Source of the DNA: Sulfitobacter undariae
GTDB lineage: Bacteria; Pseudomonadota; Alphaproteobacteria; Rhodobacterales; Rhodobacteraceae
Assembly: GCF_014196805.1 (NCBI RefSeq)
Contig: NZ_JACIEI010000001.1
Span: 310,001-374,000 of the forward strand
DNA length: 64,000 bases
Direction: 5' to 3'
The notes beneath the pieces were generated by a model. The model saw only the letters and a program-made list of their open reading frames with translations, was not told the origin of the DNA and made no database searches. Shown one piece after another: positions 6,921 to 51,939 of this stretch; the stretch's first letter is position 1, and each line of letters starts with the position of its first letter. The translations under genes were made by a program, and so were the position numbers.

Positions 6921-6999
6921 ACGACCAACGATAAATAAATGACCCGGCAATGACGTCAAAAGGCGCATAAAACAGACCGGGACCACGGGGATACATATC

Positions 7000-31951: not shown

Positions 31952-33343
31952 ATGGCTGGACCGCTGAAGAATTTGCCGCAGATTCAGTCTCTGATAGACG
32001 AGCCTTTGATCTCCTTGATTGTCACGCAATACAGCCACTCAGAGACGGTTGATGCCTTGCGGGCAATCATTGGAGCATTGCGCAGTTCCTTTTTGGCCGA
32101 TGGGGAACTGAGTTTACCTGATTTTTCCAGCGCGGCCTTCGCGGCGTCGGTGGCGGCGCGTGTTGAGTTTGCGCGCAGGCCGTCCCTTCGCGCAGTTATC
32201 AACGCGACGGGGGTCATCATTCACACGAATTTGGGGCGTGCGCCACTGGCACCTTCCGCCATACAAGCGATGCAAGTCACAGCGGAGCTGCCGAGCAACC
32301 TTGAGTTGAATTTGGATACAGGCAAGCGTGGCTCGCGACACGATCATGTTGAGCGCCAGATTTGCAAACTCACCGGTGCGCAGGCCGCTGTCGTTGTGAA
32401 TAACTGCGCAGCAGCTGTACTACTGAGCCTGATGGCGACTGCTTCGGGGCGCAGTGTGATTGCGTCACGGGGAGAGCTGATTGAAATTGGCGGGTCGTTT
32501 CGTCTGCCTGACGTGATTGCACAAAGCGGCTCCGTTTTACGTGAAGTGGGTGCAACAAACAGAACGCGTTTGAGCGATTATGAGGCTGCGATAGATGAAA
32601 CCACAGCGGTTTTGCTGAAGAGTCACACAAGCAATTTCAAAATCGTCGGGTTTACGTCCTCGCCAAAGCGGGAGGAGCTGGCACGGCTTGCGGCCGAAAA
32701 AGGGGTTATTCTGATCGAAGACCTCGGCAGTGGGGTTTTGCTGGATTTGTCGCCTTACGGGTTACAGGATGAACCTGTTGTATCTGACATCCTTAAAGCG
32801 GGTGTGGATCTGGTGATGTTTTCGGGGGACAAATTGCTGGGGGGGCCGCAGGCTGGGATCATCGCAGGCAATCGTGAGATCATTGCACGCCTCAAGTCAC
32901 ATCCGTTGATGCGCGCTGTTCGGATCGACAAGCTGTCGCTCGCGGCACTAGAGGCAACGCTACGGCTATACGCCGCGCCCTTTGATCCATTTGCTCAAAT
33001 CCCTGTTCTTGCCATGTTGTCCGAGGCGGTTGCAGATGTTGAAGGCCGTGCGCAACGGCTTGTCCATGCTTTGGCAGAGGCGCAGTGGGTGCAGGTAGAA
33101 GTACAGCCCAGCATCGCGCATGTTGGCGCTGGGTCTGTGCCAGAGCAGGGGTTGCCCAGTTTTGCCGTGGCTTGCCATGTTGATGGGTATTCCGCTGAAC
33201 AGGTTACTGCAAAATTGCGCGCCTATCAGACCCCGATCATTGGCCGGATTGAACGGGGTCGCGTATTGTTTGACATGCGCACGGTTCGGGAAAGCGAGCT
33301 GAGCATCATCGTAGCGGCGCTGCACCAGATTCAGGACGCATGA
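31952..33343 (+). CDS. selA: L-seryl-tRNA(Sec) selenium transferase
   Basis: PLP enzyme of 463 residues that converts seryl-tRNA(Sec) to selenocysteinyl-tRNA(Sec) using selenophosphate. N-terminal helical domain (LPQIQSLIDEPL), then RAVINATGVIIHTNLGRAPL, the GSRHDHVE segment and the PLP-binding Lys294 in SGDKLLGGPQAG. Full length. Its stop overlaps the selB start, so both are made from one mRNA. First gene of the selenium locus. Confidence 0.97.
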   Translation: MAGPLKNLPQIQSLIDEPLISLIVTQYSHSETVDALRAIIGALRSSFLADGELSLPDFSSAAFAASVAARVEFARRPSLRAVINATGVIIHTNLGRAPLAPSAIQAMQVTAELPSNLELNLDTGKRGSRHDHVERQICKLTGAQAAVVVNNCAAAVLLSLMATASGRSVIASRGELIEIGGSFRLPDVIAQSGSVLREVGATNRTRLSDYEAAIDETTAVLLKSHTSNFKIVGFTSSPKREELARLAAEKGVILIEDLGSGVLLDLSPYGLQDEPVVSDILKAGVDLVMFSGDKLLGGPQAGIIAGNREIIARLKSHPLMRAVRIDKLSLAALEATLRLYAAPFDPFAQIPVLAMLSEAVADVEGRAQRLVHALAEAQWVQVEVQPSIAHVGAGSVPEQGLPSFAVACHVDGYSAEQVTAKLRAYQTPIIGRIERGRVLFDMRTVRESELSIIVAALHQIQDA

Positions 33344-35238
33344 ACAGCTGTTGCATCGTGGTTGTTGGCCATGTGGATCATGGTAAGACGTCTCTTGTTC
33401 GCGCGTTGACGGGAATAGAAACTGATCGCTTGCCAGAGGAAAAGGCACGGGGGCTGTCTATTACCCCCGGCTTTGCGCACCGCAATACAGCAACCAGCGT
33501 GCTAGATTTCATTGACGCGCCTGGACATGAAGACTTCATTCAGGCGATGGTGGCAGGGGCCTCGGGGGCGCAGGCGGCGCTGGTGGTTATTTCGGCCACC
33601 GACAGCATTTGCGCGCAAACGCGTGAGCATCTTGCCATCCTTGAAATTCTAGGGATCACGCAGGGTGTGATTGCTGTGACCAAATCGGATTTGCTACATT
33701 CCGAAGATCATGAAGCACGGCTTGCAGACTTGCGAAATGCAATGTCGGCGACAGCTATGGCACATGCGCCGATGGTGCTGTGCTCAGCGCATAGCAGAGA
33801 GGGGATCGAGACCCTTGATGCGGCGTTGCAAGATTTGGCGTTGGATCGTGATGCGCAAACTGCCGATCATCCACCGATGTTGCCTGTGGACAGGGTGTTC
33901 TCAAAGTCGGGACACGGGACAGTTGTTACCGGTACTTTGCTGGGGGGCGATTTGGCTGTTGGGGCTGGGGTGGTGATACAGCCCCAACAACGCAGTGCCA
34001 CGGTGCGCGGTTTGCAGTGTCGCGGCGCATCAACTGATCTGGTGCGCGCAGGAGAGCGCGTTGCTGTGAATCTGCGCGGCGTTTCCGTGGAGGAGATACA
34101 GCGTGGTTCGGTCATATCTGTCAAAGGTGCAGGGGCTCCGACAACTTGCATCGATGTGCGCATCGAATTGCAGGCAGGCGTGGCAAAAGGATTGCGCCAC
34201 ATGGAGGACGTCCGTGTTTTGTTTGGCACGGCGCATGAAGTGGCCAGCGTCAGGTTGTTCGGCGGTGGCGGAATTGATCCGACGCAGGCGGGGTTTGCAC
34301 AGTTGCGGTTCAAAAAGCCTGTCTTTGGCTATGAAGGGCAACGCGCCGTTCTCAGGCGGTTGTCCCCGTCAGAGACGATGGGAGGCGCGGTGTTTTTGAA
34401 CACACAAGCAAGCCCAACACGGGCGGGCGACAAAACCCGATTAGAGATTTTACAAGCGGTTCACGATGGCTCTGCGTTGGCTATTGCGACAGCCGTTGGT
34501 CGCGCCAATGGCGGTGCGTGCAGCCTTGGCGATCTGGCGCGTTTGGCACGGATGTCGGCCGATGCGGTCCGCAATGATCTGGGTGACGATTTTATGAATC
34601 TGAATGCTGATCAGGTGGCCCCAAAATCGGCCATTCATACGGCTAAGGCCGAATTTTTGGCGGCGCTCATGGCGTATCACGCGAAATACCCGCTGCGGTT
34701 TATGGCCCCCCGTGGGGCAATCGTCTTACGCGGGGTCTGTGATAGTCTGCATGCGCATGTCGAGGCTGTTTTATCCCAAGGGGGTGAAATTCGTCAAAAC
34801 GATACTGGTCTGGCGATGTGTGACCATGATCCGTTTGATAATTTGACTGCGGATCAACAGGCAGATCTCAGGGAGATGGAGGTTGTGTTTCAGGCCGCTG
34901 GCATCGAAACGCTTGCCGCCTCTGAAGCCTTCGATCCTGCCCTTGTTGATGTGCTGTTGGGCATGGGGCGTATTGCCGCGCTCCATAACGTGGCGTTGAA
35001 ACAGAGATTGCTTCTGCACTCGGATACCTTGAATGCCGCTGCCGCCCGTTTGAATGACAGTTTTCCCATGCCTCTTGAATTCACAACCTCACAGGCACGT
35101 ACGGCACTTGGCACCAGTCGCAAGATTATTGTGCCCGTGTTGGAGCATTTCGACAAATGCGGTGTGACGGTACGGCTGGGAAATGCCCGCCAGATGACAG
35201 GGCTGATTCTTGTTTCCCTACCTGCGCTGCCTTGTTAG
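33340..35238 (+). CDS. selB: Selenocysteine-specific elongation factor
   Basis: GTPase of 632 residues delivering Sec-tRNA to UGA codons marked by a SECIS hairpin. G1 GHVDHGKTS is at 10-18, G3 DAPGHEDF and G4 TKSD follow; EF-Tu-like domains 2 and 3 come next and the C-terminal third contains winged-helix repeats that read the SECIS RNA (ending VLEHFDKCGVTVRLGNARQM). ATGA overlap with selA; tRNA-Sec follows 14 bp after the stop. Confidence 0.97.
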   Translation: MNSCCIVVVGHVDHGKTSLVRALTGIETDRLPEEKARGLSITPGFAHRNTATSVLDFIDAPGHEDFIQAMVAGASGAQAALVVISATDSICAQTREHLAILEILGITQGVIAVTKSDLLHSEDHEARLADLRNAMSATAMAHAPMVLCSAHSREGIETLDAALQDLALDRDAQTADHPPMLPVDRVFSKSGHGTVVTGTLLGGDLAVGAGVVIQPQQRSATVRGLQCRGASTDLVRAGERVAVNLRGVSVEEIQRGSVISVKGAGAPTTCIDVRIELQAGVAKGLRHMEDVRVLFGTAHEVASVRLFGGGGIDPTQAGFAQLRFKKPVFGYEGQRAVLRRLSPSETMGGAVFLNTQASPTRAGDKTRLEILQAVHDGSALAIATAVGRANGGACSLGDLARLARMSADAVRNDLGDDFMNLNADQVAPKSAIHTAKAEFLAALMAYHAKYPLRFMAPRGAIVLRGVCDSLHAHVEAVLSQGGEIRQNDTGLAMCDHDPFDNLTADQQADLREMEVVFQAAGIETLAASEAFDPALVDVLLGMGRIAALHNVALKQRLLLHSDTLNAAAARLNDSFPMPLEFTTSQARTALGTSRKIIVPVLEHFDKCGVTVRLGNARQMTGLILVSLPALPC

Positions 35239-35252
35239 GGTCTGCATCATTC

Positions 35253-35347
35253 GGAGGTGACTGGAGTCTGGTGGCTTCCCTGGTCTTCAAAACCATGGAC
35301 GCGTTCTAACGGCGTGTGGTGGGTTCGATTCCCATCCACCTCCGCCA
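35253..35347 (+). tRNA. selC: tRNA-Sec (anticodon UCA)
   Basis: Long tRNA of 92 nt plus encoded CCA. An 8-bp acceptor stem GGAGGTGA-type pairs with CCACCTCC, the anticodon loop CTTCAAA gives UCA, a long variable arm follows (GGACGCGTTCTAACGGCGT region) and the T loop is GGTTCGATTCC. Discriminator G and CCA at 35345-35347. Sits between selB and the thioredoxin-fusion gene. Confidence 0.95.
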
Positions 35348-35413
35348 ATGTTTCGGGGTGGACATTCTACTCCGAGATTTTGCAAGGTGCTCGTGACGTC
35401 GGGGAGGACAGAC

Positions 35414-37003
35414 ATGAGTGACCAGCAACCGCAATTTATGTTGAATGATTTAGCAGGGAATACCCGTAGCTTGTCCACAGGTCGCCCCAGCCTTGTGTGC
35501 TTTGTCAAAGAGGATTGTGAAACCTGCAATACCGCGGCTCCCGTATTGGAAGCGTTCCATAAAGCCTATTCAGATAAAGCTGACGTGATCCTTATTTCGC
35601 AATCCGGCGATGCAAATATGGCTTTTGCTGAACGCCACATCTTGACGGTGCCATTGCTGGATGACCGTTCGTGTAAAACGGCTTTTGCATGGGATATTGA
35701 AAGCGTCCCTTCGGTTTTCTGGATAGACGAGACGGGCAATGTCGTGTCGCGCTTTGAGGGGTTTATCCGCACAGACTGGGAAGCCCTAAGCGCGGATATG
35801 AACCGCCAAACGGCGCTGCCAGCGGCGCAGGTCGCGTGGGAGGATTTACCTGCATGGCGGCCCGGATGCGGCTCTAAACACCTTGATCCGAGTGTCTTTG
35901 ACAAGCTGCAAGCAGAGGCCGAGGGCAGCCCCATCCGCGCCCGCAAAATTGATGTAGCCAGTGGCGATGACGTGGCCGAGTTCATGTTTGACCAAGGGTT
36001 TTCGGATGGCCTGCCATTGGTCCCGCCGACACCGGAACGGGTGCTGCGGATGCTGGGCGGCACGCACCGCGATGCCCAAGAAGTGATTGCGACGGTTCCG
36101 CCGAACATGGGCATCGCCACGATTGAAAAGATCGCGATTAATGCCGTCATGGCTGGATGCAAACCCGAATACTTGCCGGTGGTCATCGCCGGTGTCGAGG
36201 CCGTCTGCACAGATGAGTTCAACATCCACGGCGTCACGGCCACCACAATGGGGGCGGCGCCTGTCATGATCGTCAACGGCCCCATTCGCCATAAAATCGG
36301 TATGGGGATGAAGCTGGGTGCGTTGGGGGCGGGCAACCGTGCAAACGCAACGATTGGCCGTGCTGTGCGGTTGGTGGTGCGTAACGTAGGCGGTGCGACA
36401 ACGGGCGGGGTAGAGCGTTCAACCCTTGGTAATCCGATGAAGTTCACCATGTGTTTTGCCGAGTGGGAAGAACGCTCGCCTTGGCCCGCACTGCATGTGG
36501 AACGCGGGTTTGAGCCAGAAGATTCCGTGGTCACCGTTTTTGCGATGACGGGCGGTCCTGTGCATGTCGTCGATCAGACATCGCGCGCGCCTGATCAGAT
36601 TGCGGGGTCTTTGGGCTTAGGGCTTGAAGGGGTGTTCTTGCCCAAGCTGCGCAACCTTCCTGTGGACGCGCTGCTGGTGGTGTGCCCCGAGCATATCGAC
36701 ACGCTGACCCGTGAAGGTGACTACTCCAAAGACCGTCTGCGTGATCGGATACAAGAGGTTACAACCCGCCCACTAACGGAAATGTTGGTTGATGACAAAT
36801 CTGGCGCAGGCATTTCCGCCGCCGCAGCCGAGGCAATGGGGCCTGAAAAGATGGCGGGTTCTGTACCAAAGTTCGCAGGAAAAGAGTTTATTCATCTTGT
36901 GGTGGCGGGATCGGATGCGGGCAAGTTTTCTTCAGCCTTCCATGGCTGGGCAACGGGGGCTGTTGGATCACAATCAGTTTCCAAAAAGATCGACCTCGGC
37001 TAA
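35414..37003 (+). CDS. Thioredoxin-domain fusion protein linked to the UGSC selenoprotein
   Basis: Protein of 529 residues. Residues about 8-150 look like a thioredoxin/peroxiredoxin fold with a CETC redox motif (Cys35, Cys38 in CFVKEDCETCNTAAP). Residues about 195-520 form a second domain I cannot name: FSDGLPLVPPTPERVLRMLG, VTATTMGAAPVMIVNGP, RNVGGATTGGVERSTLGNP and VFAMTGGPVHVVD are its most conserved-looking parts. The ATG at 35414 follows GGGGAGGACAG; an earlier in-frame ATG (35348) abuts the tRNA-Sec 3' end and is unlikely. The selenoprotein gene starts 24 bp after its stop with a strong ribosome-binding site. A joint redox role is inferred from context. Confidence 0.75.
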   Translation: MSDQQPQFMLNDLAGNTRSLSTGRPSLVCFVKEDCETCNTAAPVLEAFHKAYSDKADVILISQSGDANMAFAERHILTVPLLDDRSCKTAFAWDIESVPSVFWIDETGNVVSRFEGFIRTDWEALSADMNRQTALPAAQVAWEDLPAWRPGCGSKHLDPSVFDKLQAEAEGSPIRARKIDVASGDDVAEFMFDQGFSDGLPLVPPTPERVLRMLGGTHRDAQEVIATVPPNMGIATIEKIAINAVMAGCKPEYLPVVIAGVEAVCTDEFNIHGVTATTMGAAPVMIVNGPIRHKIGMGMKLGALGAGNRANATIGRAVRLVVRNVGGATTGGVERSTLGNPMKFTMCFAEWEERSPWPALHVERGFEPEDSVVTVFAMTGGPVHVVDQTSRAPDQIAGSLGLGLEGVFLPKLRNLPVDALLVVCPEHIDTLTREGDYSKDRLRDRIQEVTTRPLTEMLVDDKSGAGISAAAAEAMGPEKMAGSVPKFAGKEFIHLVVAGSDAGKFSSAFHGWATGAVGSQSVSKKIDLG

Positions 37004-37027
37004 GCTGAGATCAGAAAGGAGGAATGT

Positions 37028-37549
37028 ATGACGATAATTCTCGACCCTACGGATGAGCGCGAACCGGTTGAACGGCAAGTGACCAAGCGCAGTGGCAGCC
37101 TATCGGGCGTGATTGGTTTGCTGGACATCAGCAAGCCACGTGGCAACATCATGCTGGATGAGTTGGAAAAACTACTGGCGCAAAAAGCACCTGACGTGAC
37201 GATACGCCGCTTTACCAAGCCGACTTTTGCAAAACCCTGTCCTGATGCTTTGCGGCATGAAATACGGGACACTTGCGATTTTCTGGTCGAAGCACTGGCC
37301 GACTGAGGATCCTGCACAACGTGCAGTATGCACGACAATGTCTGGTTTGAAACCCAGGGGATCCCCGCAGTTGCGATTGCTTCCAGTGAGTTCGGCGAAG
37401 CCGCCGAAAGCCAGCGAAGTGCACTTGGTATGAACGGCGCGCATTATGTTTTGGTGCCGCATCCGATTCAGGACGCAACCGACGACGAAATGCGCATCAA
37501 AGCCGCGCAAGCCTTGGAGCAGGTCATCGCTGCGCTGACGCAGAACTAA
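37028..37549 (+). CDS. UGSC-family selenoprotein (in-frame UGA read as selenocysteine)
   Basis: An AAAGGAGG ribosome-binding site precedes the ATG at 37028. The frame runs 92 codons to TGA at 37304-37306 and continues open in the same frame to TAA at 37547-37549, giving 173 residues. Around the TGA it reads Asp-Sec-Gly-Ser-Cys-Thr-Thr-Cys, the motif after which the UGSC (seleno)protein family is named; the Cys at 96 could form a selenenylsulfide with Sec93. The N-terminal part (LDISKPRGNIMLDELEKLL, TIRRFTKPTFAKPCP) and the part after the Sec (HDNVWFETQGIPAVAIASSEF) both look coding. A hairpin suitable as SECIS follows the TGA. The function of the family is not known to me. Confidence 0.85.
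37304..37334 (+). promoter_or_regulatory. UGA-Sec codon and candidate bacterial SECIS hairpin
   Basis: Downstream of the TGA (37304-37306) is a perfect 6-bp hairpin CGTGCA-GTA-TGCACG (37320-37334). With the T of TGA as position 1, the loop G and T are at 23 and 24, the spacing known for the E. coli fdhF SECIS loop. A mutually exclusive hairpin CTGCAC-AAC-GTGCAG (37312-37326) is also possible. The bulged U17 of E. coli is a C here, so the match is structural rather than exact. Confidence 0.55.
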
Positions 37550-37558
37550 ACCAATCAT

Positions 37559-37600
37559 CCTCGCCCCGTGTACTAAGCATAGGGCGGGGGTGTTTTCTTC
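37559..37600 (+). terminator. Terminator after the selenoprotein gene
   Basis: Stem CCTCGCCC (37559-37566) with GGGCGGGG (37582-37589), one G:T pair, then TGTTTTCTTC. It separates the selenoprotein gene from selD, so selD likely has its own promoter. Confidence 0.65.
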
Positions 37601-37684
37601 GCGTTTACAGTATCGTGTTTGGACATTACTGCGCCTACAGGGCAGTTGTGATATGATGACGACTTGCCAAGAGGCGCTTTTCCG

Positions 37685-39850
37685 ATGTTACACACTGTCC
37701 CATACACACGTGATCTGGTGTTTGTCGGTGGCGGGCATGCGCACGCCCTCGTCTTGCGCAAATGGGGCATGAACCCTTTGCCGGGTGCGCGGCTGACCCT
37801 TATCAATCCTGGGCCAACAGCACCCTATACTGGCATGTTACCCGGCCACATCGCGGGGCACTATGGCCGTGATACGCTAGAAATTGATCTGGTTCGTTTA
37901 GCCCGCTTCGCAGGTGCGCGCCTGATCCTGAGCCATGCGACGGGCATCGACCGCGCTGCGAAGGTGATACATGTTGAGGGGCGCGGCCCTGTGGCATATG
38001 ATGTGGCTTCTATTGATATCGGCATCACAGCACGCATGGATATTGCGGGGTTTGCACAGCATGCTGTTGGGGCCAAGCCATTGGATACCTACGCCCAGAC
38101 ATGGCGCTTGTTCATCGATGCCGTCAGAGAAGGTTTGAAGCCCCCAAAAGTGGCCGTGATCGGAGGGGGCGTCGCAGGGTGTGAGTTGGCGATGTCGATG
38201 GCCTTTGCCTTACGCGACTGCGGCGTTGACGCACAGGTCACGGTGATCGAGGCGGGACCACAGATTTCGGGTGTCGGGGCAAAAGCGCGAGATCACCTGC
38301 ACCGCGCTATGGCAGGTCTTGGGGTCACCTTTCTGCCTAATGCACAGATCACGGAAATACGTGCGCAAGACGTTTTGATCGCAGGCCAGCCGCCCGTTGA
38401 GGCTGCGCTTTGTGTCGGGGCGGCGGGTGCGTTTGCGCATGGGTGGCTTGGCCAGACTGATTTGCCTCTGCACAACGGGTTCATCGTGACGCAGCCCGAT
38501 TTGCGGGTGAAGGATGACGCGCAGCTTTTCGCTGTCGGGGATTGCGCGCATATGCCTTTTGCGCCGCGCCCCAAGGCGGGAGTGTTTGCTGTGCGTGCAG
38601 CCCCTGTGCTGCTTCACAATTTGCGTGCGGTCCTGACAGGGGCAGCGCTAAAGCCGTTTCGCCCTCAGAAATCCTATCTCAAGCTGATATCATTGGGCGG
38701 TAAATCTGCGATGGCAGAGAAATATGGTTTCGCCCTGTCTGCGCCCTTGCTTTGGCGCTGGAAGGACCGGATCGACCGCGCCTTTATGGATCAACTGGAT
38801 GACCTGCCCGTGATGCAACCGCCTGCGTTGCCGTCGCTGGTGGCGGATGGTGTAGGTGAGGAAGCCCAGACAGTGCCGCTGTGTGGCGGATGTGGTGCCA
38901 AGGTGGGCGGCGCAGTTCTGAAATCCGCCATCGGGGATATGCCTGACGATTTGCCCGCCGAAATAATCGCGGGACCGGGCGATGATGCTGCGATCTTGCG
39001 GCAAACGGATGGTAGCTTTCAGGTGATCAGCACAGATCACTTGCGGGCTTTCATTGACGATCCTGTTCAAATGACGCGCATCGCGGCGGTGCATGCTTTG
39101 GGCGATATCTGGGCTATGGGGGCTATGCCGCAAGTGGCGCTGAGCAGCATCGTTTTGCCGCGTATGTCATCGCCGCTTCAAGAACGCAGTTTGCGAGAAA
39201 TCAGTGATGCCGCCCGCGAGGTCTTTGCGCAAGTAGGGGCCACTGTCGTGGGTGGCCATACGACAATGGGCGCGGAATTGACGATTGGTTTTACCGTGAC
39301 AGGTGTGCGCCAAGACATGCCGATCACAGTCGCGGGTGCACAGGCAGGCGATGTGCTGCTGCTGACACGTCCAATCGGGTCGGGTGTTATCCTCGCGGCG
39401 CATATGGCAGGCAAAGCGCAAGCGCATGTCGTTGCGCAGGTATTGGCCGCGATGGAGCAACCGCAGCACATCGAAAGCCGGATTTTGCGTGATGCGCATG
39501 CGATGACAGATGTGACAGGGTTTGGGCTGGCTGGCCATATCGCTGCAATCTGCAAAGCCTCACATCTGCGCGCCGAAATCTGGTGCAATAAGTTACCACT
39601 ATATGAAGGTGCGCAGAGCCTCTCTGAGCAGGGTGTATTTTCTTCGTTGCTGGCGGCGAACATGGCTGATGCGCCTGCCATGGGTGCGGCTGATCCGCTA
39701 TTGTATGATCCGCAGACCGCAGGTGGCCTGCTTGCAGCACTGCCGCCTGCCTTGGCAGAGGCGGCTTTGGTTGCTTTGCGTGCTGAAGGGTGTGAGGGGC
39801 ATATCATTGGCGTTCTTTCAGAAGGTGTGGGCGCGTTGCAGGTTAAATAA
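37685..39850 (+). CDS. selD: Selenide, water dikinase fused to an N-terminal FAD/NAD(P) oxidoreductase
   Basis: A 721-residue fusion. Residues about 10-365 are a pyridine-nucleotide oxidoreductase of the NDH-2-like type (FVGGGHAHALVLRKWG, VAVIGGGVAGCELAMSMA, LFAVGDCAHM). Residues about 398-721 are SelD, which makes selenophosphate from selenide and ATP: LCGGCGAKVGG holds the catalytic Cys403 and Lys406 (equivalents of E. coli Cys17 and Lys20), while the second cysteine (E. coli Cys19) is Ala. GDDAAIL, GATVVGGHTTMG and AMTDVTGFGLAGH follow. The oxidoreductase may supply reduced selenium; such fusions are known in other bacteria. The ATG at 37685 is preferred over TTG 37664. Confidence 0.93.
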   Translation: MLHTVPYTRDLVFVGGGHAHALVLRKWGMNPLPGARLTLINPGPTAPYTGMLPGHIAGHYGRDTLEIDLVRLARFAGARLILSHATGIDRAAKVIHVEGRGPVAYDVASIDIGITARMDIAGFAQHAVGAKPLDTYAQTWRLFIDAVREGLKPPKVAVIGGGVAGCELAMSMAFALRDCGVDAQVTVIEAGPQISGVGAKARDHLHRAMAGLGVTFLPNAQITEIRAQDVLIAGQPPVEAALCVGAAGAFAHGWLGQTDLPLHNGFIVTQPDLRVKDDAQLFAVGDCAHMPFAPRPKAGVFAVRAAPVLLHNLRAVLTGAALKPFRPQKSYLKLISLGGKSAMAEKYGFALSAPLLWRWKDRIDRAFMDQLDDLPVMQPPALPSLVADGVGEEAQTVPLCGGCGAKVGGAVLKSAIGDMPDDLPAEIIAGPGDDAAILRQTDGSFQVISTDHLRAFIDDPVQMTRIAAVHALGDIWAMGAMPQVALSSIVLPRMSSPLQERSLREISDAAREVFAQVGATVVGGHTTMGAELTIGFTVTGVRQDMPITVAGAQAGDVLLLTRPIGSGVILAAHMAGKAQAHVVAQVLAAMEQPQHIESRILRDAHAMTDVTGFGLAGHIAAICKASHLRAEIWCNKLPLYEGAQSLSEQGVFSSLLAANMADAPAMGAADPLLYDPQTAGGLLAALPPALAEAALVALRAEGCEGHIIGVLSEGVGALQVK

Positions 39851-40122: not shown

Positions 40123-40184
40123 TTGACAGTTCGGCGCGAAGGTTACTAGGCTGTTTTCACATAGTGGAACGCTGTTTCGAAAAC
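40123..40184 (+). promoter_or_regulatory. Candidate promoter and IclR-type operator upstream of the TAXI gene
   Basis: The 400-bp gap 39851-40253 holds no supportable gene. It contains TTGACA (40123-40128), with TAGGCT at 40147-40152 as a possible weak -10, and just downstream TGGAAC-GCT-GTTTCG (40165-40179), close to the GAAAC-N3-GTTTC dyad used by IclR-family regulators; an outer dyad GTTTTC/GAAAAC (40153-40158, 40179-40184) encloses it. No IclR gene is nearby. Confidence 0.4.
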
Positions 40185-40253
40185 GGCAGGGTCCACAACA
40201 CTGGTTTGCCACGTTGGGAGCGGGCAAAAATATGGACATTCTGGGAGGAAACC

Positions 40254-41390
40254 ATGAAATATATCACCTCTACTTTTGCAGTTTTGGCTCTGTCGGCCAC
40301 AACTGTTGCAGCCCAAGATTTGGAACTGCCAAAACAGATGAGCTGGACAGCCTACGGAACAGGTTCTGCTGGCTATAACCAAGCCGTCGCTATTGGCGCA
40401 GCTTTGCAGGACGCCGCTGGCGTGAACCTGCGGGTATTGCCGGGCAAAAATGACGTGTCGCGCACCGAGCCATTGCGCCAAGGCCGTGTGCAGTTCTCTG
40501 CCACAGGTGTCGGCGGCAGCTTTATGGCGCAAGAAGGCGTGTTTGATTTTGGCGCTGAAAATTGGGGCCCGCAAAGCGTTCGCGTTTTGATGGCCAACAA
40601 TGGCGGCGCTATTAACCTTTCAGTGGGTGTTGCTGCTGATGCGGGTATTGAAACCTATGCGGACCTCAAAGGTAAGCGCGTGGCCTTTATCGTGGGCTCG
40701 CCCGCGCTGAACGTGAACACAGAGGCTTATCTGGCCTATGGTGGTTTGACGTGGGACGATGTCGAGCGGGTTGATTTCGGTGGCTATGGTGCCAGCTGGA
40801 ATGGCTTGGTTGAAGGGCAAGTTGACGCGGCATTTGCGGCGACGAACTCAGGCAAGGTCTATGAGGCTGCTGCGGGTCCGCGCGGTTTGTTCTGGCCGCC
40901 AATTGATCCAGAAGACACCGAAAGCTTTGCTGCGATGCAAGCCGTTGCGCCGTTCTTTACCATCAACAAGGCATCGGTTGGGGCGAACATTGATGGCACT
41001 GCCGGATACCAAGGTGCAGGCTATGCCTATCCGGTCTTGACCGCGATGGCGGCGACCGATGAAGCCCTAGTTTATAACATGACCAAGGCGATGGTTGAAC
41101 TGTTCCCACAGTATGACGGTAAATCACCGGGCATTGGGGGCTGGGCGCTGGACAAGCAAAACATGAAATGGGTTGTTCCTTACCATGACGGCTCAATCCG
41201 CTATTTCACGGAAGTGGGTGTTTGGTCGGACGAAGCGCAGGCGCATAATGACAATCTGATCAAACGTCAGGAAGTTCTTATGGCTGCATGGGAAGCAACC
41301 AAAGAAGCCAAGCCGGAAAACTGGGACGCAGCATGGGCCGAGGCCCGTCGCAAGGCCCTTGCTGACGGCGGCTTCCAAGTAACCTTCTAA
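40254..41390 (+). CDS. TAXI-family TRAP transporter solute-binding protein
   Basis: Periplasmic binding protein of 378 residues. The ATG at 40254 (preceded by GGGAGGAAACC) begins a signal peptide MKYITSTFAVLALSATTVAA. The mature part has the TAXI pattern: MSWTAYGTGSAGYNQAVAIGAALQ, LRVLPGKNDVSRTEPLRQGRVQFSATG and TYADLKGKRVAFIVGSPALNV. It partners with the fused permease downstream, from which it is separated by a strong hairpin. Ligand unknown. Confidence 0.9.
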   Translation: MKYITSTFAVLALSATTVAAQDLELPKQMSWTAYGTGSAGYNQAVAIGAALQDAAGVNLRVLPGKNDVSRTEPLRQGRVQFSATGVGGSFMAQEGVFDFGAENWGPQSVRVLMANNGGAINLSVGVAADAGIETYADLKGKRVAFIVGSPALNVNTEAYLAYGGLTWDDVERVDFGGYGASWNGLVEGQVDAAFAATNSGKVYEAAAGPRGLFWPPIDPEDTESFAAMQAVAPFFTINKASVGANIDGTAGYQGAGYAYPVLTAMAATDEALVYNMTKAMVELFPQYDGKSPGIGGWALDKQNMKWVVPYHDGSIRYFTEVGVWSDEAQAHNDNLIKRQEVLMAAWEATKEAKPENWDAAWAEARRKALADGGFQVTF

Positions 41391-41411
41391 GCCTCTCCTA
41401 AACACAGCTTG

Positions 41412-41452
41412 ACCGGCCAGCCTTTTGCGCTGGCCGGTTTGTGTTCTCTTTT
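41412..41452 (+). terminator. Intercistronic hairpin between TAXI binding protein and permease
   Basis: Perfect 10-bp stem ACCGGCCAGC (41412-41421) with GCTGGCCGGT (41429-41438), 7-nt loop, then TTGTGTTCTCTTTT. Strong enough to terminate partly or to stabilise the binding-protein mRNA. Confidence 0.7.
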
Positions 41453-41468
41453 AGATGCGGATCATCAA

Positions 41469-43475
41469 ATGACTGACCAGAATACCCCCCCCACCAATCA
41501 AGTACAGGGTCATGAAGCTGTGGCCATCGACGGCGAAACCCCGTCTGAGCGTCTGGCAGGCCCGGCGCGTTGGGTTGTCATTATCGGCACAATCTTGTCG
41601 TTGGTCTTGGTGATCAACCAACTGTTTAATCTACAGATTGCGGGCATCGTTCTGATTGACGGACGGTATCTGTATATTCTGGGTGGTATGTTTCTGGCGC
41701 TTAGTTTTCTGATTTTCCAAATCCGTGGCGGTAAGGGCGGCGTGCCTTCGCTGTTGGATTGGGCATTATTTGCTGTCGCGCTTGGGTGTACGGGCTATCT
41801 GGCTCAAACGGCGCAGACAAACCTGTCGCAGGGGTGGGAATATGCCGCCCCGCAGATGGCGCAATATGTCTCGGTTGTTTTCTTCTTTCTGGTGTTGGAG
41901 GCAACCCGCCGTGCGGGGGGGCTGGTGTTGTTCCTGATCGTCACGGTCTTTGCCTTTTACCCCACTTTTGCAGGCTATGTGCCTGATCCGTTCTCGGGCT
42001 TTCAGAGCACGTTTATGCAGACGGTCCCTTACCATGTGTTTTCTTCCGAGAGTTCCTTTGGCATCCCGATGAAAGCCTTTGGTGGTGTTGTGATCGGCTT
42101 TATTCTGTTTGGTGCAGTTTTGCAGCGCACAGGCGGTGGGCAGTTCTTTAACGATCTCGCGCTTGGACTTGTGGGCGGATATCGCGGCGGTGCCGCAAAG
42201 GTGTCAATCTTTGCCAGTGGTTTCATGGGCTCAATGTCGGGTTCTGTGATCTCTAACGTATTGACCACGGGCGCAGTATCCATTCCGGCGATGCGCAAGA
42301 CAGGCTTTAGCGCCAAAACCGCCGCCGCAACCGAGGCCTGCGCCTCAACGGGTGGCGTGTTGATGCCGCCGATCATGGGGGCCACGGCCTTTATCATGGC
42401 GTCGTTTCTGTCGCGCCCCTATGTGGAAATTGCGCTGGCCGCCGCCATTCCTAGCATCCTGTTTTACTGGGGCTTGTTCACTGGCATTGACGCCTATGCC
42501 GCCAAACGCGGTTTGCGCGGTTTGCCTAAACCCGATCTGCCACGCCTGAAGGAAGTGATGATTGAGGGCTGGCCCTATATCTTCGTCTTTGCGCTGCTGC
42601 TCTATATGATGATCGGCCTGCGTCAGGAATCTTCTGCGCCGTTCTATTCCACCGCTCTTTTACTGGTGGTTAACCAATTCCGCGCGCGGTTCCGCCTAAA
42701 CCTTAAACGGTTGGGAAATATGATTGTGGGTGTCGGTATGGGGCTGGCTGAGCTGACCTCAATCCTACTGGGTGTCGGGCTGATTGTGGGATCGTTTTCG
42801 GCGACAGGCCTTGCAGGGACGCTGGTGAATGAACTGGTGTTTATGGCGGGTGACAGCACGCTGGTATTGCTGCTGATGGGCGCGTTGACCGCGTTTATCT
42901 TTGGCATGGGGATGACTGTGACCGCCTGTTACATCTTCCTTGCAGTTGTTCTGGCCCCCGCGCTTGAGTCCGGTGGCCTGAATACACTCGCCGTGCATTT
43001 GTTCATCTTGTATTGGGGTATGGTCAGCTACATCACCCCACCTGTGGCATTGGGGGCATTTGCTGCTTCCACCATGGCGGGGTCCAATCCCATCGCAACA
43101 GGGTTTGAGGCGATGCGTCTGGGCGGAGTGATTTATATTGCGCCCTTCTTCTTCGTGTTGAACCCGGCGCTGATTGGGCAGGCCCCCGCATGGGAAGTCG
43201 CTGTGGCACTGTCTTCTGCACTGATTGGGGTTGCGTTGATTTCGGCGGCTTTGCAGGGTTACATCAGCCTTATTGGTCCGCTGGAAGGGCCGTTGGGTAT
43301 GCCGATGCGCGTTCTGGTGTTCTTTGGTGGCGTCCTTATTGCGATGCCCCAAAACGGTTTGATCAATCTCGGGTACGGAGCCTCTTTCCTGATCGGGGCG
43401 GCACTCTGTGCAATCCCGATTGTAGCAGCGCGTAGGGCCCATACTTCTAGTACACTCTTGCAAGGTGAGGCTTAA
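41469..43475 (+). CDS. TRAP transporter 4TM/12TM fused permease
   Basis: Membrane protein of 668 residues in which the small (4TM) and large (12TM) TRAP subunits are fused, as is usual for TAXI systems. About 16 hydrophobic segments can be counted; the DctM-like part contains GGGQFFNDLALGLVGGYRGG, FASGFMGSMSGSVISNVLTTG and STGGVLMPPIMGATAFIMA. The ATG at 41469 is chosen because the longer in-frame start (41409) lies in the hairpin. The acyl-CoA ligase gene begins right at its stop. Confidence 0.92.
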   Translation: MTDQNTPPTNQVQGHEAVAIDGETPSERLAGPARWVVIIGTILSLVLVINQLFNLQIAGIVLIDGRYLYILGGMFLALSFLIFQIRGGKGGVPSLLDWALFAVALGCTGYLAQTAQTNLSQGWEYAAPQMAQYVSVVFFFLVLEATRRAGGLVLFLIVTVFAFYPTFAGYVPDPFSGFQSTFMQTVPYHVFSSESSFGIPMKAFGGVVIGFILFGAVLQRTGGGQFFNDLALGLVGGYRGGAAKVSIFASGFMGSMSGSVISNVLTTGAVSIPAMRKTGFSAKTAAATEACASTGGVLMPPIMGATAFIMASFLSRPYVEIALAAAIPSILFYWGLFTGIDAYAAKRGLRGLPKPDLPRLKEVMIEGWPYIFVFALLLYMMIGLRQESSAPFYSTALLLVVNQFRARFRLNLKRLGNMIVGVGMGLAELTSILLGVGLIVGSFSATGLAGTLVNELVFMAGDSTLVLLLMGALTAFIFGMGMTVTACYIFLAVVLAPALESGGLNTLAVHLFILYWGMVSYITPPVALGAFAASTMAGSNPIATGFEAMRLGGVIYIAPFFFVLNPALIGQAPAWEVAVALSSALIGVALISAALQGYISLIGPLEGPLGMPMRVLVFFGGVLIAMPQNGLINLGYGASFLIGAALCAIPIVAARRAHTSSTLLQGEA

Positions 43476-43479
43476 TCAC

Positions 43480-45048
43480 ATGTTACAAATCAATCCTCCA
43501 ATTACGGATCTGATGACCAATGACACCATTGTTGACCGCTTGCGGAGCAACGCCTTGGCGCATCCTGACAAATTGGCGCTGGTCTGTGGCCCGCAACGCC
43601 TGACATGGGCCGAGTTTGACGCGCGGACCAACCGCGTCAGCAATGCGCTACTGGAAAACGGGCTCAAGAAGGGCGACAACATCGCCGTGATCTCGGCCAA
43701 TTCGGTAGCTTATGCAGAGTTGTTCATCGGGATTTTACGGGCAGGGGGCTGCGTGACGCCACTGTCCTCCATGGCCTCGCCAGATGCCTTGCAAAAAATG
43801 CTGACCGACTGCGGCGCGACAGCGATTTTTGTGGCCGAGCAGTATTTTGGATTGGTCGAAGGCTTTATCACGTCGATGTCGCTGAGCCGCTTTGCGATTG
43901 ATTTTACCCATCCAGATTTTATGGATTACGAAGCAACGCTGGCCCAAGCTCCTGAAACCGATCCGATGATCGCGCTTGAGATGTCGGATGCGTTTAACTT
44001 GATCTACTCGTCCGGCACCACAGGTACGCCAAAAGGCATTTTGCACAACCATCAAATGCGCGCCGCGCAAATGGACCGTGTGACGCCGAACGGCTACGAT
44101 AACAACGCTCGCACTCTGCTCTCGACGCCGCTTTATTCCAACACCACCATTGTGGCGTTTCTGCCCACGCTGTTTGGTGGATCTACTGTATATCTGATGC
44201 CGAAATTCGATGCGCGCGGATATCTGGAAATCGTGGCCGCAGAAAAAATCACCCATACGATGCTTGTGCCGGTGCAGTATAAACGCATCATGGATGTGCC
44301 TGATTTCGATAGCTTTGATCTGTCGTCCATGCAGATCAAATTCTCCACCTCAGCCCCATTGCGGGCTGCGCTAAAGGCTGATGTGCTGGCGCGCTTCCCG
44401 GGTAAGTTGGTGGAATATTACGGCCTGACCGAAGGCGGCGGCGTGACTGTATTGGTTGCGGATGAGCATCCCACCAAATTGCATACGGTGGGCCAACTGG
44501 CGCCGGGCAACGACATCTGTTTGATTGATGGTGAAGGCAACGAAGTCCCGCAGGGCGAAGTGGGCGAGATTTGCGGCCGTGGGCCGACGATGATGGCGGG
44601 TTACTTTGGTCGCGATGATTTGACTGCCGATTACATCTGGCGCAATTCAGCAGGCGATATCTACTTCCGTTCTGGAGACATGGGGTCGTTTGACGCGGAT
44701 GGTTTTCTGATGCTGTCAGACCGCAAAAAAGACATGATCATCTCTGGTGGCCTGAACATCTATGCCAATGATCTTGAGATGGTGCTGCTGCAAGATGTTG
44801 ATGTGACCGATGCTGCCGTGATCGGAGTGCCCTCGGATGCATGGGGCGAAACGCCTTTGGGTATGGTCGTACTACGTGAAGGTGCCTCGCGTGGGGCAGA
44901 AGACATTCTTGCTCAGGCAAATTCTACCTTAGGTAAAAGCCAGCGGTTGTCCGCAGTCGAAATCCGTGAAACGCTGCCGCGTAGTACCATCGGCAAAATC
45001 CTGAAAAAGGATTTGCGCGCACCCTATTGGGAAAAGGAAAACACGTGA
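43480..45048 (+). CDS. AMP-forming acyl-CoA synthetase (class I adenylate-forming enzyme)
   Basis: ANL-superfamily ligase of 522 residues. P-loop SSGTTGTPKG at 177-186, YYGLTEGG, the GDMGSFDADGF aspartate motif and the hinge DRKKDMIISGG are all intact; C-terminal Lys in STIGKILKKDLR is the adenylation lysine. The ATG at 43480 follows AGGTGAGG and sits 5 bases after the permease stop. The substrate is presumably the acid imported by the TAXI transporter, but sequence alone does not identify it. Confidence 0.87.
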   Translation: MLQINPPITDLMTNDTIVDRLRSNALAHPDKLALVCGPQRLTWAEFDARTNRVSNALLENGLKKGDNIAVISANSVAYAELFIGILRAGGCVTPLSSMASPDALQKMLTDCGATAIFVAEQYFGLVEGFITSMSLSRFAIDFTHPDFMDYEATLAQAPETDPMIALEMSDAFNLIYSSGTTGTPKGILHNHQMRAAQMDRVTPNGYDNNARTLLSTPLYSNTTIVAFLPTLFGGSTVYLMPKFDARGYLEIVAAEKITHTMLVPVQYKRIMDVPDFDSFDLSSMQIKFSTSAPLRAALKADVLARFPGKLVEYYGLTEGGGVTVLVADEHPTKLHTVGQLAPGNDICLIDGEGNEVPQGEVGEICGRGPTMMAGYFGRDDLTADYIWRNSAGDIYFRSGDMGSFDADGFLMLSDRKKDMIISGGLNIYANDLEMVLLQDVDVTDAAVIGVPSDAWGETPLGMVVLREGASRGAEDILAQANSTLGKSQRLSAVEIRETLPRSTIGKILKKDLRAPYWEKENT

Positions 45049-46604
45049 CTGAGACGAAAATGAACGGGGCTGAAAGCCTTGTGCACACTCTGCTGGCGAA
45101 TGATGTAGATGTTTGCTTTACCAACCCTGGCACCTCCGAGATGCACTTTGTCGCGGCGCTGGATCACATTCCGGGCATGCGTTCGGTGCTGGTGTTGCAG
45201 GAAAACGTAGCAACAGGCGCGGCGGATGGCTATTACCGCATGGCGGGAAAACCTGCTTCAACTTTGCTGCACCTCGGGCCGGGTTTGGCCAACGGTCTAT
45301 CTAACCTGCATAACGCCAAAAAAGCAGGGTCTGGCGTGGTCAATATCATCGGTGAACATGCCTCGACGCATATCGAACTGGATGCGCCGCTGACCTCGGA
45401 TATCGAGGGTATTGCACGGCCTGTTTCCCATTGGGTTCGTAGCTCAAAATCCGCGCAAGACGTGGGTAAGGATGCCGCAGAAGCTATTCAGGCCGCTATG
45501 GTCGCACCGGGGCAAATCGCGTCTTTGATCTTGCCCAGCGACACGGCATGGAATGAAGACGGCGAAGCCCAAGAGGCGATTGAGATGCCCGTGCCTGCGC
45601 CCTTTGATGAAAGCCAGCTGGAACAGGCCGTTGCAGCGCTGGGCGGCGAAGAGACATTGTTGCTGCTGGGCGGCCAAGCTCTGACAGAGAGCAATTTGGA
45701 AATTGCTGGCAAAATCTCTGCGAAAACCGGCTGCGCGATCCTGTCTGAATGGGCTAACGGGCGGATGGAACGTGGCGTAGGGCGGGTCTATATTGACCGT
45801 GTGCCATACCCTATTGATTTGGCGCTCAAGGCACTTGCGCCGTATAAACGTATCGTTTTGATCGGTGCACGTGCGCCCATCGGTTTCTTTGCCTATCCTG
45901 GCAAACCCGCGATCCTGACCCGTGAAGGTGCAGAGATTACCAAATTGGCAAATGCAGGTGCTGATTTAACAGCAGCCCTTGCGGCGCTATGCAGCGCGAC
46001 GGGTGCGGATGATACGCCGCCTGCGCATGTTTCGGAACCCACCCAAGCGGTGCGTCCGACTGGCCCGATCACTCTAGAAGCCATTGCCGATCTGGTCGCT
46101 CTTTCCATCCCTGAGAACGGGATTGTTGTGGATGAATCCCTGACATCGGGCCGTGCGTTTTCACCTGCCACCAAAGGCGCTGCACCCCATTCGTGGATCA
46201 ACAACTGCGGCGGCTCCATCGGCTACTCTATGCCCACCTCTATCGGGGCGGCGGTGGCGTGTCCGGATCGCAAGGTTATGTGCCTCACGGGGGACGGGTC
46301 GGCGATGTATACGGTACAATCGTTGTGGACGATGGCACGTGAAAATCTGGATATTACAGTGGTGGTCTTCGCCAACCGCAGCTATCAGATTTTGCGCGGC
46401 GAGTTGACGAATGTCGGTGTCGGCAATCCCGGCCCCCGTGCGATTGACATGCTTAGCCTAGATCGCCCTGCGTTGGATTGGGTGCAAATGGCGCAAAGCA
46501 TGGGCGTCGAAGCGCAGCGTGTGGCGGATTGTGAAACCCTTGACGCCGCGCTGGAAGATGCATTGGCCAACAGCGGCCCGAATTTGATCGAAATTGTGCT
46601 TTAA
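45045..46604 (+). CDS. ThDP-dependent enzyme, acetolactate-synthase-like
   Basis: Thiamine-diphosphate enzyme of 519 residues. The N-terminal Pyr domain has the catalytic Glu about 53 in LQENVATGAADGYYRM, and the PP domain has the GDGSAMYTVQSLW ... FANRSY ThDP/Mg motif. Overall similar to large-subunit acetolactate synthases and benzoylformate/oxalyl-CoA type decarboxylases; no small subunit is nearby, so isoleucine/valine synthesis is unlikely. The GTG at 45045 overlaps the ligase stop; an ATG at 45060 is an equally possible start. Likely acts on the same imported substrate as the ligase. Confidence 0.8.
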   Translation: MTETKMNGAESLVHTLLANDVDVCFTNPGTSEMHFVAALDHIPGMRSVLVLQENVATGAADGYYRMAGKPASTLLHLGPGLANGLSNLHNAKKAGSGVVNIIGEHASTHIELDAPLTSDIEGIARPVSHWVRSSKSAQDVGKDAAEAIQAAMVAPGQIASLILPSDTAWNEDGEAQEAIEMPVPAPFDESQLEQAVAALGGEETLLLLGGQALTESNLEIAGKISAKTGCAILSEWANGRMERGVGRVYIDRVPYPIDLALKALAPYKRIVLIGARAPIGFFAYPGKPAILTREGAEITKLANAGADLTAALAALCSATGADDTPPAHVSEPTQAVRPTGPITLEAIADLVALSIPENGIVVDESLTSGRAFSPATKGAAPHSWINNCGGSIGYSMPTSIGAAVACPDRKVMCLTGDGSAMYTVQSLWTMARENLDITVVVFANRSYQILRGELTNVGVGNPGPRAIDMLSLDRPALDWVQMAQSMGVEAQRVADCETLDAALEDALANSGPNLIEIVL

Positions 46605-46609
46605 CAGCC

Positions 46610-47386
46610 TTAGGATGCAGTGCCTTTGAGGTGCTGCATCCATCCCAATCCCGCCTCGGTTGATATACGCGGGCGGTATTCAGCCCCTACAAACCCGTCA
46701 TAGCCAAGGGCGGTGAGATGGCGCATCAGCCAGCCATAATCGACTTCTCCGCAATCTGGTTCCCCGCGATCGGGCACCGCTGCAATCTGGACATGGCCGA
46801 TTTTTGGTAGCAAGCGTTCCAGCGACATCGCCAGATCGCCTTGCATGATCTGCATGTGGTAACAATCAAACATGATCTTTAACTCGGGCCTATCAAGGGC
46901 ATCGATGATGCGTTCTGCATGGGCCGTGTCGGACAGATGATAGCCCGCGACATCGCGTGTGTTGATGGGTTCAATCAAAATGCCGATCTCTTGCGCGGCG
47001 GCCAGATCGCAGGCAAAATTCAGGTTCTCGCGAAAGCAATCCTCGGAGGCGGTATCGCCCTCTGTGCGGCCAGCCATAACATGCACAGCCTCAACGCCAG
47101 CGGCTGCCGCATAATCAACCGCGCGGGTGATCTCGTTGCGGGCTTCTTCGCGCCTATGGGGCAGGGCGGCAAGGCCAAAGTCACCTGCGTCACGGTCACC
47201 GGGCCACGTGTTCAGGCCCAGCATGCGCAGACCAGTCTCTTGCAACGCGCTGCGCATAATCTCAGGTGCGGTGTCATAGGGAAAGTGACATTCAACCGCG
47301 TCAAACCCGCCTGATTTGGCGGCGCGGATGGCGTCGGGCAGGGGCAGGTCCGTGTATAAAAAGCCCAAGTTGGCAGAGTATTTCAT
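46610..47386 (-). CDS. otnI: 2-oxo-tetronate isomerase (hydroxypyruvate isomerase family)
   Basis: TIM-barrel isomerase of 258 residues, Hyi/OtnI family: SANLGFLYTDLPLPDAIRAA at the N terminus, ECHFPYD, ILIEPINTRDVAGYHLSD and MFDCYHMQIM. With OtnK and OtnC alongside, the specific role is 2-oxo-tetronate isomerisation in C4 sugar-acid breakdown. The ATG at 47386 shares its G/T with the otnC stop (TGATG). Last gene of the cluster, convergent with the ThDP gene five bases away. Confidence 0.87.
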   Translation of the reverse strand: MKYSANLGFLYTDLPLPDAIRAAKSGGFDAVECHFPYDTAPEIMRSALQETGLRMLGLNTWPGDRDAGDFGLAALPHRREEARNEITRAVDYAAAAGVEAVHVMAGRTEGDTASEDCFRENLNFACDLAAAQEIGILIEPINTRDVAGYHLSDTAHAERIIDALDRPELKIMFDCYHMQIMQGDLAMSLERLLPKIGHVQIAAVPDRGEPDCGEVDYGWLMRHLTALGYDGFVGAEYRPRISTEAGLGWMQHLKGTAS

Positions 47387-50152: not shown

Positions 50153-50155
50153 GAA

Positions 50156-51436: not shown

Positions 51437-51939
51437 TGTGCTGCCTCCGCGTTGCGGGCTTCGAGCCAATCACCTTGTACGGCGCGGATCATGGCGGCGA
51501 CAATTGCGATGAGGATAAAGAATGAACCGACGGGCAGAGCGGCATAAACCCAACCAATGGAGACCTCTAGCGCGGCCAAGCTTTGAGCTTTGACGCGCAA
51601 GGTCATCAGGTATCCTTGCCACATCAGGACAGAGAAAAAGACAAGAGAGCCGAGATTGGCAAAGAGGTAGAGCGCCAACCCCAGACGGGGTGGCAGAATG
51701 TTCTGGATCACATCAACCGAGATCATCGCACCATGCCGAAAGGCAACTGCAACGCCAAGGAAAACAGACCAAATCATCGCGGAGCGCGTGATCACTTCGG
51801 ACCACGTGGAGGGGGCGCCGAATACAAAGCGGGTGACCACCTGAAACAGCGCCAAAGAGGCCGCAATAATCAGAAATGCGATGGAGAGCCGTAAGGCCGC
51901 GCCTGTCGTGAAGTCTTCGAAACGTAGGAAATAACGCAT
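51433..51939 (-). CDS. dctQ: TRAP transporter small permease (DctQ type)
   Basis: Protein of 168 residues with four hydrophobic helices; WSEVITRSAMIWSVFLGVAVAFRHGAMISVD is the usual DctQ stretch. Works with DctM and DctP. The gap of about 80 bp to dctP contains a hairpin. Confidence 0.88.
   Translation of the reverse strand: MRYFLRFEDFTTGAALRLSIAFLIIAASLALFQVVTRFVFGAPSTWSEVITRSAMIWSVFLGVAVAFRHGAMISVDVIQNILPPRLGLALYLFANLGSLVFFSVLMWQGYLMTLRVKAQSLAALEVSIGWVYAALPVGSFFILIAIVAAMIRAVQGDWLEARNAEAAQ

Follow-up and report, generated by a model that had tools for sequence, protein, structure and literature searches.

The closest described counterparts of the locus reported here include the UGSC selenoproteins and the selenocysteine (Sec) proteins GrdB and PrdB of glycine and D-proline reductase. 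The UGSC family was in print by 2008, in a survey whose available part describes it as a major ocean selenoprotein fused to a domain called 'Unknown_1' and names it among the most abundant marine selenoproteins (PMC2398784). Family, motif, fusion to an unnamed domain and abundance are also found in the accessible portions of later sources (PMC9312934, PMC13188914, PMC5330540, PMC5029168, PMC7539508), one of which still lists UGSC without a characterised function (PMC13188914). In its available text the same source gives the motif UxxCxxC for GrdB and calls PrdB a GrdB homologue (PMC13188914). Thioredoxin (Trx) is, as reviews state, the electron donor of glycine reductase, and D-proline reductase is held not to use it (PMC10298544, accessible part). 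Here we describe a selenium cassette in a 64,000-nucleotide stretch of Sulfitobacter undariae (contig NZ_JACIEI010000001.1, positions 310,001 to 374,000), hereafter the window, whose own numbering is used throughout. Six features, namely selA, selB, tRNA-Sec, a Trx-fused gene, a UGSC gene with an in-frame UGA and a reductase-selD gene, all lie on the + strand between 31952 and 39850. A first-pass annotation had placed them in one same-strand block, and profiles, ARAGORN and Rfam confirm all six.

We propose, with a probability of about 0.5, that the cassette (selA-selB-tRNA-Sec, here together with selD) is kept for the UGSC protein and its Trx-fused partner, and that these two form a Trx-driven reductase in small-molecule catabolism. 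The selenolate of Sec93 would attack a substrate held together with PartC, the second domain of the partner, which has the conserved cysteines C249 and C347. The adduct would then be resolved by Cys96, giving a selenenyl-sulfide to be reduced by the fused CxTC Trx domain, and TrxB/NADPH of the cell would recharge this domain, in a chemistry like that of GrdB and PrdB. A carboxylate taken up through a TAXI-TRAP transporter is the probable substrate, or precursor of the substrate, in Sulfitobacter, and an acyl-CoA ligase and a thiamine pyrophosphate (TPP) enzyme would process it further. Directly visible in the sequences are the residues with their conservation, and the links between genes; every chemical step and the class of substrate are what we infer from them.

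Selenocysteine machinery and its client

The set for Sec decoding is complete at the locus, with selA, selB, selD and tRNA-Sec. The L-seryl-tRNA(Sec) selenium transferase gene selA (31952..33343, +; PF03841, E 2e-144; TIGR00474, E 1e-172) overlaps by 4 nucleotides (nt) with selB (33340..35238, +), which encodes the Sec-specific elongation factor with a C-terminal winged helix (PF00009, PF09107; TIGR00475 287 bits, cut-off 242). The tRNA-Sec (35253..35347, +), with anticodon UCA and an encoded CCA end, lies 14 nt downstream of selB; it was found by ARAGORN and, at 74.6 bits, by the Rfam model RF01852, for which it is the only match over the cut-off in the genome. The partner gene follows (35414..37003, +), and 24 nt downstream of it, preceded by an aaaggagga motif, the UGSC gene (37028..37549, +). 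The presence of the Trx-fusion gene, as first annotated, stands; its start is most likely not directly at tRNA-Sec but the ATG at 35414, 66 nt past the tRNA, judging by the starts in relatives and a ggggagga motif 5' of this ATG.

The UGSC gene encodes 173 amino acids with Sec93 in the motif UGSCTTC. With 164.4 bits for PF24696 (cut-off 25, E 4e-48) and 174.2 bits for NF041046 (cut-off 125, E 2e-51) the protein exceeds both curated cut-offs, and with U-G-S-C containing Sec it shares the motif of the family, showing no difference in membership. It is therefore not a new selenoprotein: the family has these two profiles and was described by 2008 (PMC2398784, available part). We compared the in-frame UGA (37304..37306, +) across L023-L114, a set of 92 related loci in which two or more pairs are probably duplicates (L023/L040 and L030/L052, each pair on contigs of equal length). 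Of these loci, 90 carry TGA as this codon and two carry TGC, with protein similarity on both sides, which confirms the UGA of the first-pass annotation; no true stop in its place was seen in these relatives. In the 20 class-level loci chosen by UGSC it is TGA without exception.

A SECIS-like hairpin (SECIS, selenocysteine insertion sequence), a putative SelB site, lies directly 3' of the UGA, its apical stem-loop (37320..37334, +) within the coding region. The six-pair stem is formed in 35/35 aligned sequences (all 210 cells paired), with one variable pair (GC/GU/AU) and the remaining five invariant. As this invariance of five of the six pairs makes the covariation test weak, we relied on a codon test of the window together with 80 named loci (81 sequences in all). 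Synonymous usage under the stem is frozen: Cys at codon +6 is TGC and Ser at +7 is AGT in all 81, and Thr at +5 is ACG in 77 and ACA in four, while the codons flanking +5 to +7 vary. Among the 50 seven-codon windows compared, the hand-chosen one from +4 to +10 was uniquely low in synonymous variation. Translation of the UGA as Sec is almost certain, since TGA is kept in 90 of the 92 loci and synonymous codons are frozen under the SECIS-like hairpin. The reading as a true stop, which would leave a truncated protein of 92 amino acids, is the one that translation table 11 gives, and single-sequence folding of the 47-nt hairpin region is not above shuffles (z 0.09). We nevertheless consider it ruled out for practical purposes by the kept TGA with a conserved protein behind it, the TGC in the remaining two loci, the conserved stem, the frozen codons (+6 and +7 identical in 81/81) and the presence of selA, selB and tRNA-Sec alongside.

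Some exceptions and additional cases were seen at the Sec position. In genome G014 (L020/L022/L033) a UGSC gene has TGC at this position, but its match contains a TGA at another place and a second fragment adjoins it; this gene looks broken or frameshifted. In L195 and L206 two PartC matches and a TrxB-like reductase lie behind UGSC, whose motif GMGC-U-GSC contains the TGA. Plasmid-borne UGSC genes with TGA at the Sec codon occur in Paracoccus versutus (L121) and in Acidovorax sp. T1 (L123, an IncP conjugative plasmid).

The co-occurrence of the machinery and UGSC was examined in an order sample of 292 genomes, which includes 15 of the source genus, our own genome among them. UGSC is present in 13 genomes, selA over its cut-off in 26 and both in 11, so that selA is found in 11/13 genomes with UGSC vs 15/279 without. 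The two genomes with UGSC and without selA (G014 and G187; loci L033 and L034) carry TGC at the Sec codon. Within the genus the agreement is complete in 15/15 genomes, 10 having both and five neither; selA and UGSC are thus present or absent together in the sampled members of the genus. The first-pass annotation had noted that formate dehydrogenase is absent, which holds for the block; elsewhere in the genome there are two genes of this type, one alpha chain over the TIGR01591 cut-off and one below. Both have Cys at the active-site motif, which by this motif is judged to be the Sec position, and as Sec clients both were rejected. In-frame stops were found in none of the four molybdopterin, 10 AhpC/TSA (one being the partner itself) and five CMD matches of the genome, in which the search also found no Rdx or GRDB protein.

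Because the two formate dehydrogenase-type proteins use Cys, the UGSC pair is the sole Sec client found in this family-by-family search, and its proposed role as main client is supported by all three lines of evidence. That selAB serve only a formate dehydrogenase elsewhere is, as far as tested, not what the genome suggests. The machinery could still mainly serve such an enzyme or another selenoprotein elsewhere, with UGSC a minor client. Such a reading would be in accordance with the 15/26 selA genomes of the order sample that lack UGSC (14 from genus g6, one from g10), by which selA alone is no sign of UGSC, and with a client search that covered some families only. It is made improbable by the Cys in both alpha chains, by the lack of in-frame stops, Rdx and GRDB in the families searched and by the agreement across the genus.

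The UGSC/PartC pair

The partner consists of an N-terminal ResA/AhpC-like Trx domain (KEDCxTC), over the cut-off for PF00578/PF08534, and the PartC domain of about 380 amino acids. Its N-terminal domain resembles thiol-disulfide oxidoreductases of the ResA/TlpA type in sequence (NF002854, E 9e-11, below the cut-off), in the CxxC site and in fold, being ResA-like by Foldseek in a model of pLDDT 83.5; it differs from them in its fusion to PartC and in having no signal peptide obvious by eye. PartC alone has no Pfam match at the cut-off, and a search for sequence relatives in the PDB gave two chance-level matches (E 2.1). Every one of the 50 Foldseek matches listed for the model of the partner appears to be to a Trx domain, so PartC is left without a fold assignment. 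Its cysteines are well kept, C249 in 41/42 and C347 in 39/42 aligned members, and it is probably the 'Unknown_1' domain of the 2008 survey (PMC2398784, available part).

PartC adjoins UGSC in 79/80 named loci, the exception being cut by a contig end, and is found in 19 of the 20 class-level loci chosen by UGSC. The one without it, L202, has no PartC upstream, and its contig ends about 0.4 kb downstream of UGSC. Each of the 16 plasmid records that match UGSC matches PartC as well; this count rests on the plasmid record lists and not on the loci L115-L125, which were fetched through their PartC matches and are no test of how often UGSC has PartC. Both domains occur in one chain in Variovorax boronicumulans, and in Sporomusa and Vibrio plasmid proteins a weak UGSC match is fused to PartC. 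By these counts UGSC and the PartC domain form a near-constant pair. In the plasmid loci that were read the Sec position is Cys in seven (L115-L118, L122, L124, L125) and TGA in two (L121, L123), L121 sharing an identical UGSC stretch around Sec with L032. Viral contigs contained no stretch that fitted the partner patterns.

Within the flank examined, the 80 named loci have selB in 56, tRNA-Sec in 55 and selA in 50, and the contiguous order selB, tRNA-Sec, Trx-PartC in 50. This contiguity could also mean that the pair acts in the handling of selenium or of metals and metalloids, for example in delivering reduced selenium to SelD, and such a role would account for its place within the sel cluster. 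It is, however, at odds with the 24/80 named loci, mostly metagenome-assembled genomes of Gammaproteobacteria and several with short flanks, in which neither selA nor selB nor tRNA-Sec was found, and with the seven Cys-type plasmid pairs, in whose surrounding stretch the gene tables of the plasmids, which are incomplete, list no sel gene. We regard a role in selenium handling as very improbable. Four loci titled Acidobacteria or Sulfopaludibacter (L067, L068, L071, L078) have a cassette layout close to that of Hyphomonas loci and are possibly mis-binned.

The AlphaFold2 model of the UGSC protein (pLDDT 91.5) has five alternating strands and helices, with Sec93 between the strand 85-91 and the helix 94-109. 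Flavodiiron proteins, azoreductases and further flavodoxin-like proteins head its Foldseek matches, with a TM-score of about 0.5; TIR domains, lumazine synthases and others stand among them, and no thioredoxin is among the 50 listed. The model is flavodoxin-like and not of the Trx fold. The Trx-like fold suggested for UGSC in the available part of the 2008 survey (PMC2398784) was not seen, given the alternating beta/alpha order and the lack of thioredoxins among the listed matches. A search for sequence relatives of UGSC in the PDB found none.

Likeness to GrdB and PrdB

UGSC has the motif UxxCxxC (UGSCTTC) in common with GrdB (PF07355), the third Cys not being kept in all distant UGSC members, and both UGSC and the GRDB-like group have a GIP-like stretch at +18 to +20 after Sec. 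When UGSC and GRDB profiles were trimmed and two faulty rows of the first run removed (L161, with a wrong offset and a cut flank, and L158, in a wrong frame), their comparison gave 41% probability with Sec aligned on Sec, a result that 0/200 shuffles reached. A broader UGSC set gave 51% and a score of 36.2, again Sec on Sec; the 12 control comparisons reached at most 24.3 and the 100 column shuffles at most 23.1. The Trx-fused partner also recalls glycine reductase, where Trx is the electron donor. Unlike the GrdB/PrdB systems, which have GrdA/C/D or GrdE/PrdA partners, this locus has none that was recognised, and the hosts of the UGSC pair are here mostly Alpha- and Gammaproteobacteria of presumably aerobic type, judged by taxon. 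On these points, which are suggestive only, UGSC may work like GrdB and is maybe a distant relative of it; we do not present it as GrdB. If the link is true, the Stickland-type reductive selenoenzymes would have a broad aerobic counterpart.

PF07355 is found in 43/385 genomes of a class sample, 26 of them among the 38 with UGSC, an overlap which the shared Sec machinery alone could explain. In 27/30 of the loci L130-L159 a TGA marks the end of the PF07355 match and precedes P--[TH], with UPxC in most, and these alphaproteobacterial GRDB-like genes look like a widespread UPxC-type selenoprotein group. L204 has Trx-PartC, UGSC and a GRDB-family gene (6758-7930, -) on one strand, the last two matches some 44 nt apart, with selD, selA and selB nearby on the other strand; its GRDB gene is possibly a second Sec client in one operon.

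Electron supply and catabolic neighbours

Of 126 loci scanned, 12 have a TrxB-like reductase no more than about 5.4 kb from the pair, and in 10 the distance is about 2 kb or less; the TrxB queries came from three of those twelve loci (L116, L118, L195). In L095 and L100 the neighbour looks like a housekeeping trxB on the opposite strand. In Arthrobacter the order trxB-trxA-PartC-UGSC is contiguous, and by fusion or gene order Trx or TrxB is tied to the UGSC pair.

Directly behind the cassette the window has a module of four genes, all on the + strand: a TAXI-type TRAP solute-binding protein (40164..41390; over the TIGR02122 cut-off), a TRAP fused permease (41409..43475; over the TIGR02123 cut-off), an AMP-binding acyl-CoA ligase (43465..45048; PF00501) and a TPP enzyme of the acetolactate synthase/benzoylformate decarboxylase type (45027..46604; PF02776/PF02775, over the NF005760 cut-off). 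Permease, ligase and TPP enzyme recur beside the cassette in relatives. TAXI/TRAP, ligase and TPP enzyme stand behind selD in the window and in L027, L035 and L036, and L039 has ligase and TPP enzyme only. Before selA, the permease, ligase and TPP enzyme are found in L030, L031, L051 and L052, and a second TAXI/TRAP variant in L023, L037, L040 and L046. The full module of four genes also occurs away from the cassette (L210, L211, L213, L214, L217, L218), and in four UGSC genomes without a TAXI orthologue (L219-L222) the cassette is without the module.

To a set of 62 genomes of the genus, 33 with UGSC and 29 without, we applied an orthologue threshold of at least 66% identity, by which G706 and G685, with matches of 39-46%, count as lacking TAXI; the UGSC match of G701, a fragment at a contig end, counts as present. 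A TAXI orthologue was found in 27/33 genomes with UGSC vs 5/29 without (Fisher p 5e-7, not corrected for relatedness). In 15 of these 27 the orthologue is no more than 15 kb away, and in 12 it is either on a different contig or at a distance of more than 190 kb. TAXI genes adjoin the UGSC pair elsewhere as well, as a more distant TAXI/TRAP pair in another alphaproteobacterium (L192) and as a TAXI gene on a haloarchaeal plasmid (L124). Neighbours in other lineages include MFS, TauD, acyl-CoA dehydrogenase, CoA-transferase, dimethylformamidase-like and amidohydrolase genes. The common theme of these neighbourhoods is uptake and breakdown of organic compounds, with substrates that probably differ between lineages.

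UGSC was found in 38/385 genomes of the class sample with 97 matches, 92 of which contain one TGA; in the loci read, where alone the position was checked, it is at the Sec codon in 28/29, the remaining one being an offset error. A genome may have up to 8 copies. In G476 and G646 (L189-L199) up to 8 copies stand in differing catabolic neighbourhoods, and these genomes are suited to finding substrates.

The pair might instead be a general thiol/selenol redox system, repairing peroxide or disulfide damage, with neighbours that are incidental. The fused ResA/AhpC-like Trx domain, the TrxB-like neighbours, the existence of the TAXI/TRAP/ligase/TPP module without UGSC and the redox functions expected for most such families (PMC2398784, available part) are all in accordance with this. 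It fits less well with a UGSC model that is not Trx-like, with the recurrent association of the pair with genes for import, CoA-ligase, CoA-transferase and dioxygenase, and with up to 8 copies per genome, which suit differing substrates better than a single repair function. We consider a general redox role rather unlikely. The 'new thiol/selenol redox system' of the first-pass annotation was too general a description, as the recurring neighbours indicate an enzyme of Trx-driven small-molecule catabolism. We put forward a wider proposal only tentatively, namely that UGSC, PartC and Trx form a second, oxygen-tolerant branch of the glycine/proline reductase superfamily, which reductively cleaves carbon-heteroatom bonds of imported organic acids, has several substrate types and in Sulfitobacter is part of a cassette that is gained and lost together with its own Sec machinery.

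A number of observations weigh against the proposed Trx-driven catabolic reductase and its kinship with GrdB. Other Sec clients were sought family by family only, and PartC has no named relative. In 8/24 plasmid records listed PartC is without a tblastn match to UGSC, though profiles find UGSC in some of them. The first comparison of UGSC and GRDB profiles, untrimmed and with the two faulty rows, gave a probability of 6.6%, and even 51% is no proof of homology. PF07355 does not match UGSC at E values up to 10; as PF07355 matches end at the Sec codon, and the likeness is mostly at and behind Sec and so outside the model, this is a limited test. A subunit like GrdE or PrdA was not recognised beside the pair. 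The association with TAXI ignores kinship, and 6/33 genomes with UGSC lack the orthologue while five without UGSC have it. The complete module is present in genomes of the genus without UGSC (L213, L214) and is thus independent of the cassette, the TAXI/TRAP pair occurs without ligase and TPP enzyme in four genomes with UGSC (L209, L212, L215, L216), and the neighbours vary widely across lineages.

Our literature searches, which left most subscription papers outside their coverage, found no functional proposal for UGSC, no link to GrdB and no report of the cassette; the accessible part of one Sulfitobacter paper reports only tRNA-Sec (PMC12016528). As far as these searches show, what is new is the flavodoxin-like model in place of a Trx fold, the Sec-on-Sec alignment with the GrdB family (suggestive only), the near-constant partner domain with two Cys, the tie to Trx/TrxB and the recurring module of TAXI-TRAP, acyl-CoA ligase and TPP enzyme. 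To the knowledge of the UGSC family this would add the SECIS constraint, the Trx fusion, the co-occurrence of the cassette and the link to a transporter. For work on the function of UGSC the locus provides PartC as a partner, Trx as an electron donor and TAXI-TRAP as a possible import route, and a genus whose named strains differ in the presence of the whole cassette makes this function open to genetic testing.

Two minor features of the window remain. A terminator-like hairpin with a T-rich tail lies 3' of the UGSC gene (37556..37592, +; -24.6 kcal/mol, z -4.15), absent from the listing of the consensus terminator scan; it suggests that the transcript ends there and that selD is transcribed separately, the reductase-selD gene probably having a transcript of its own. 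This gene (37685..39850, +, from ATG 37685) encodes a fusion of a pyridine-nucleotide reductase with a Cys-type SelD, over the cut-offs of both TIGR03169 and TIGR00476 and with no in-frame UGA within its reading frame. Ndh-SelD fusions are on record in the accessible part of PMC2398784; the fusion here is of that kind and nothing notable differs. Behind the TPP enzyme, on the - strand at 46610-51469, are genes for a TIM-barrel isomerase, a class II aldolase, an SBD_N/NBD_C kinase, a dehydrogenase of the hydroxyisobutyrate type and a TRAP permease, a set that looks like one for four-carbon sugar acids.

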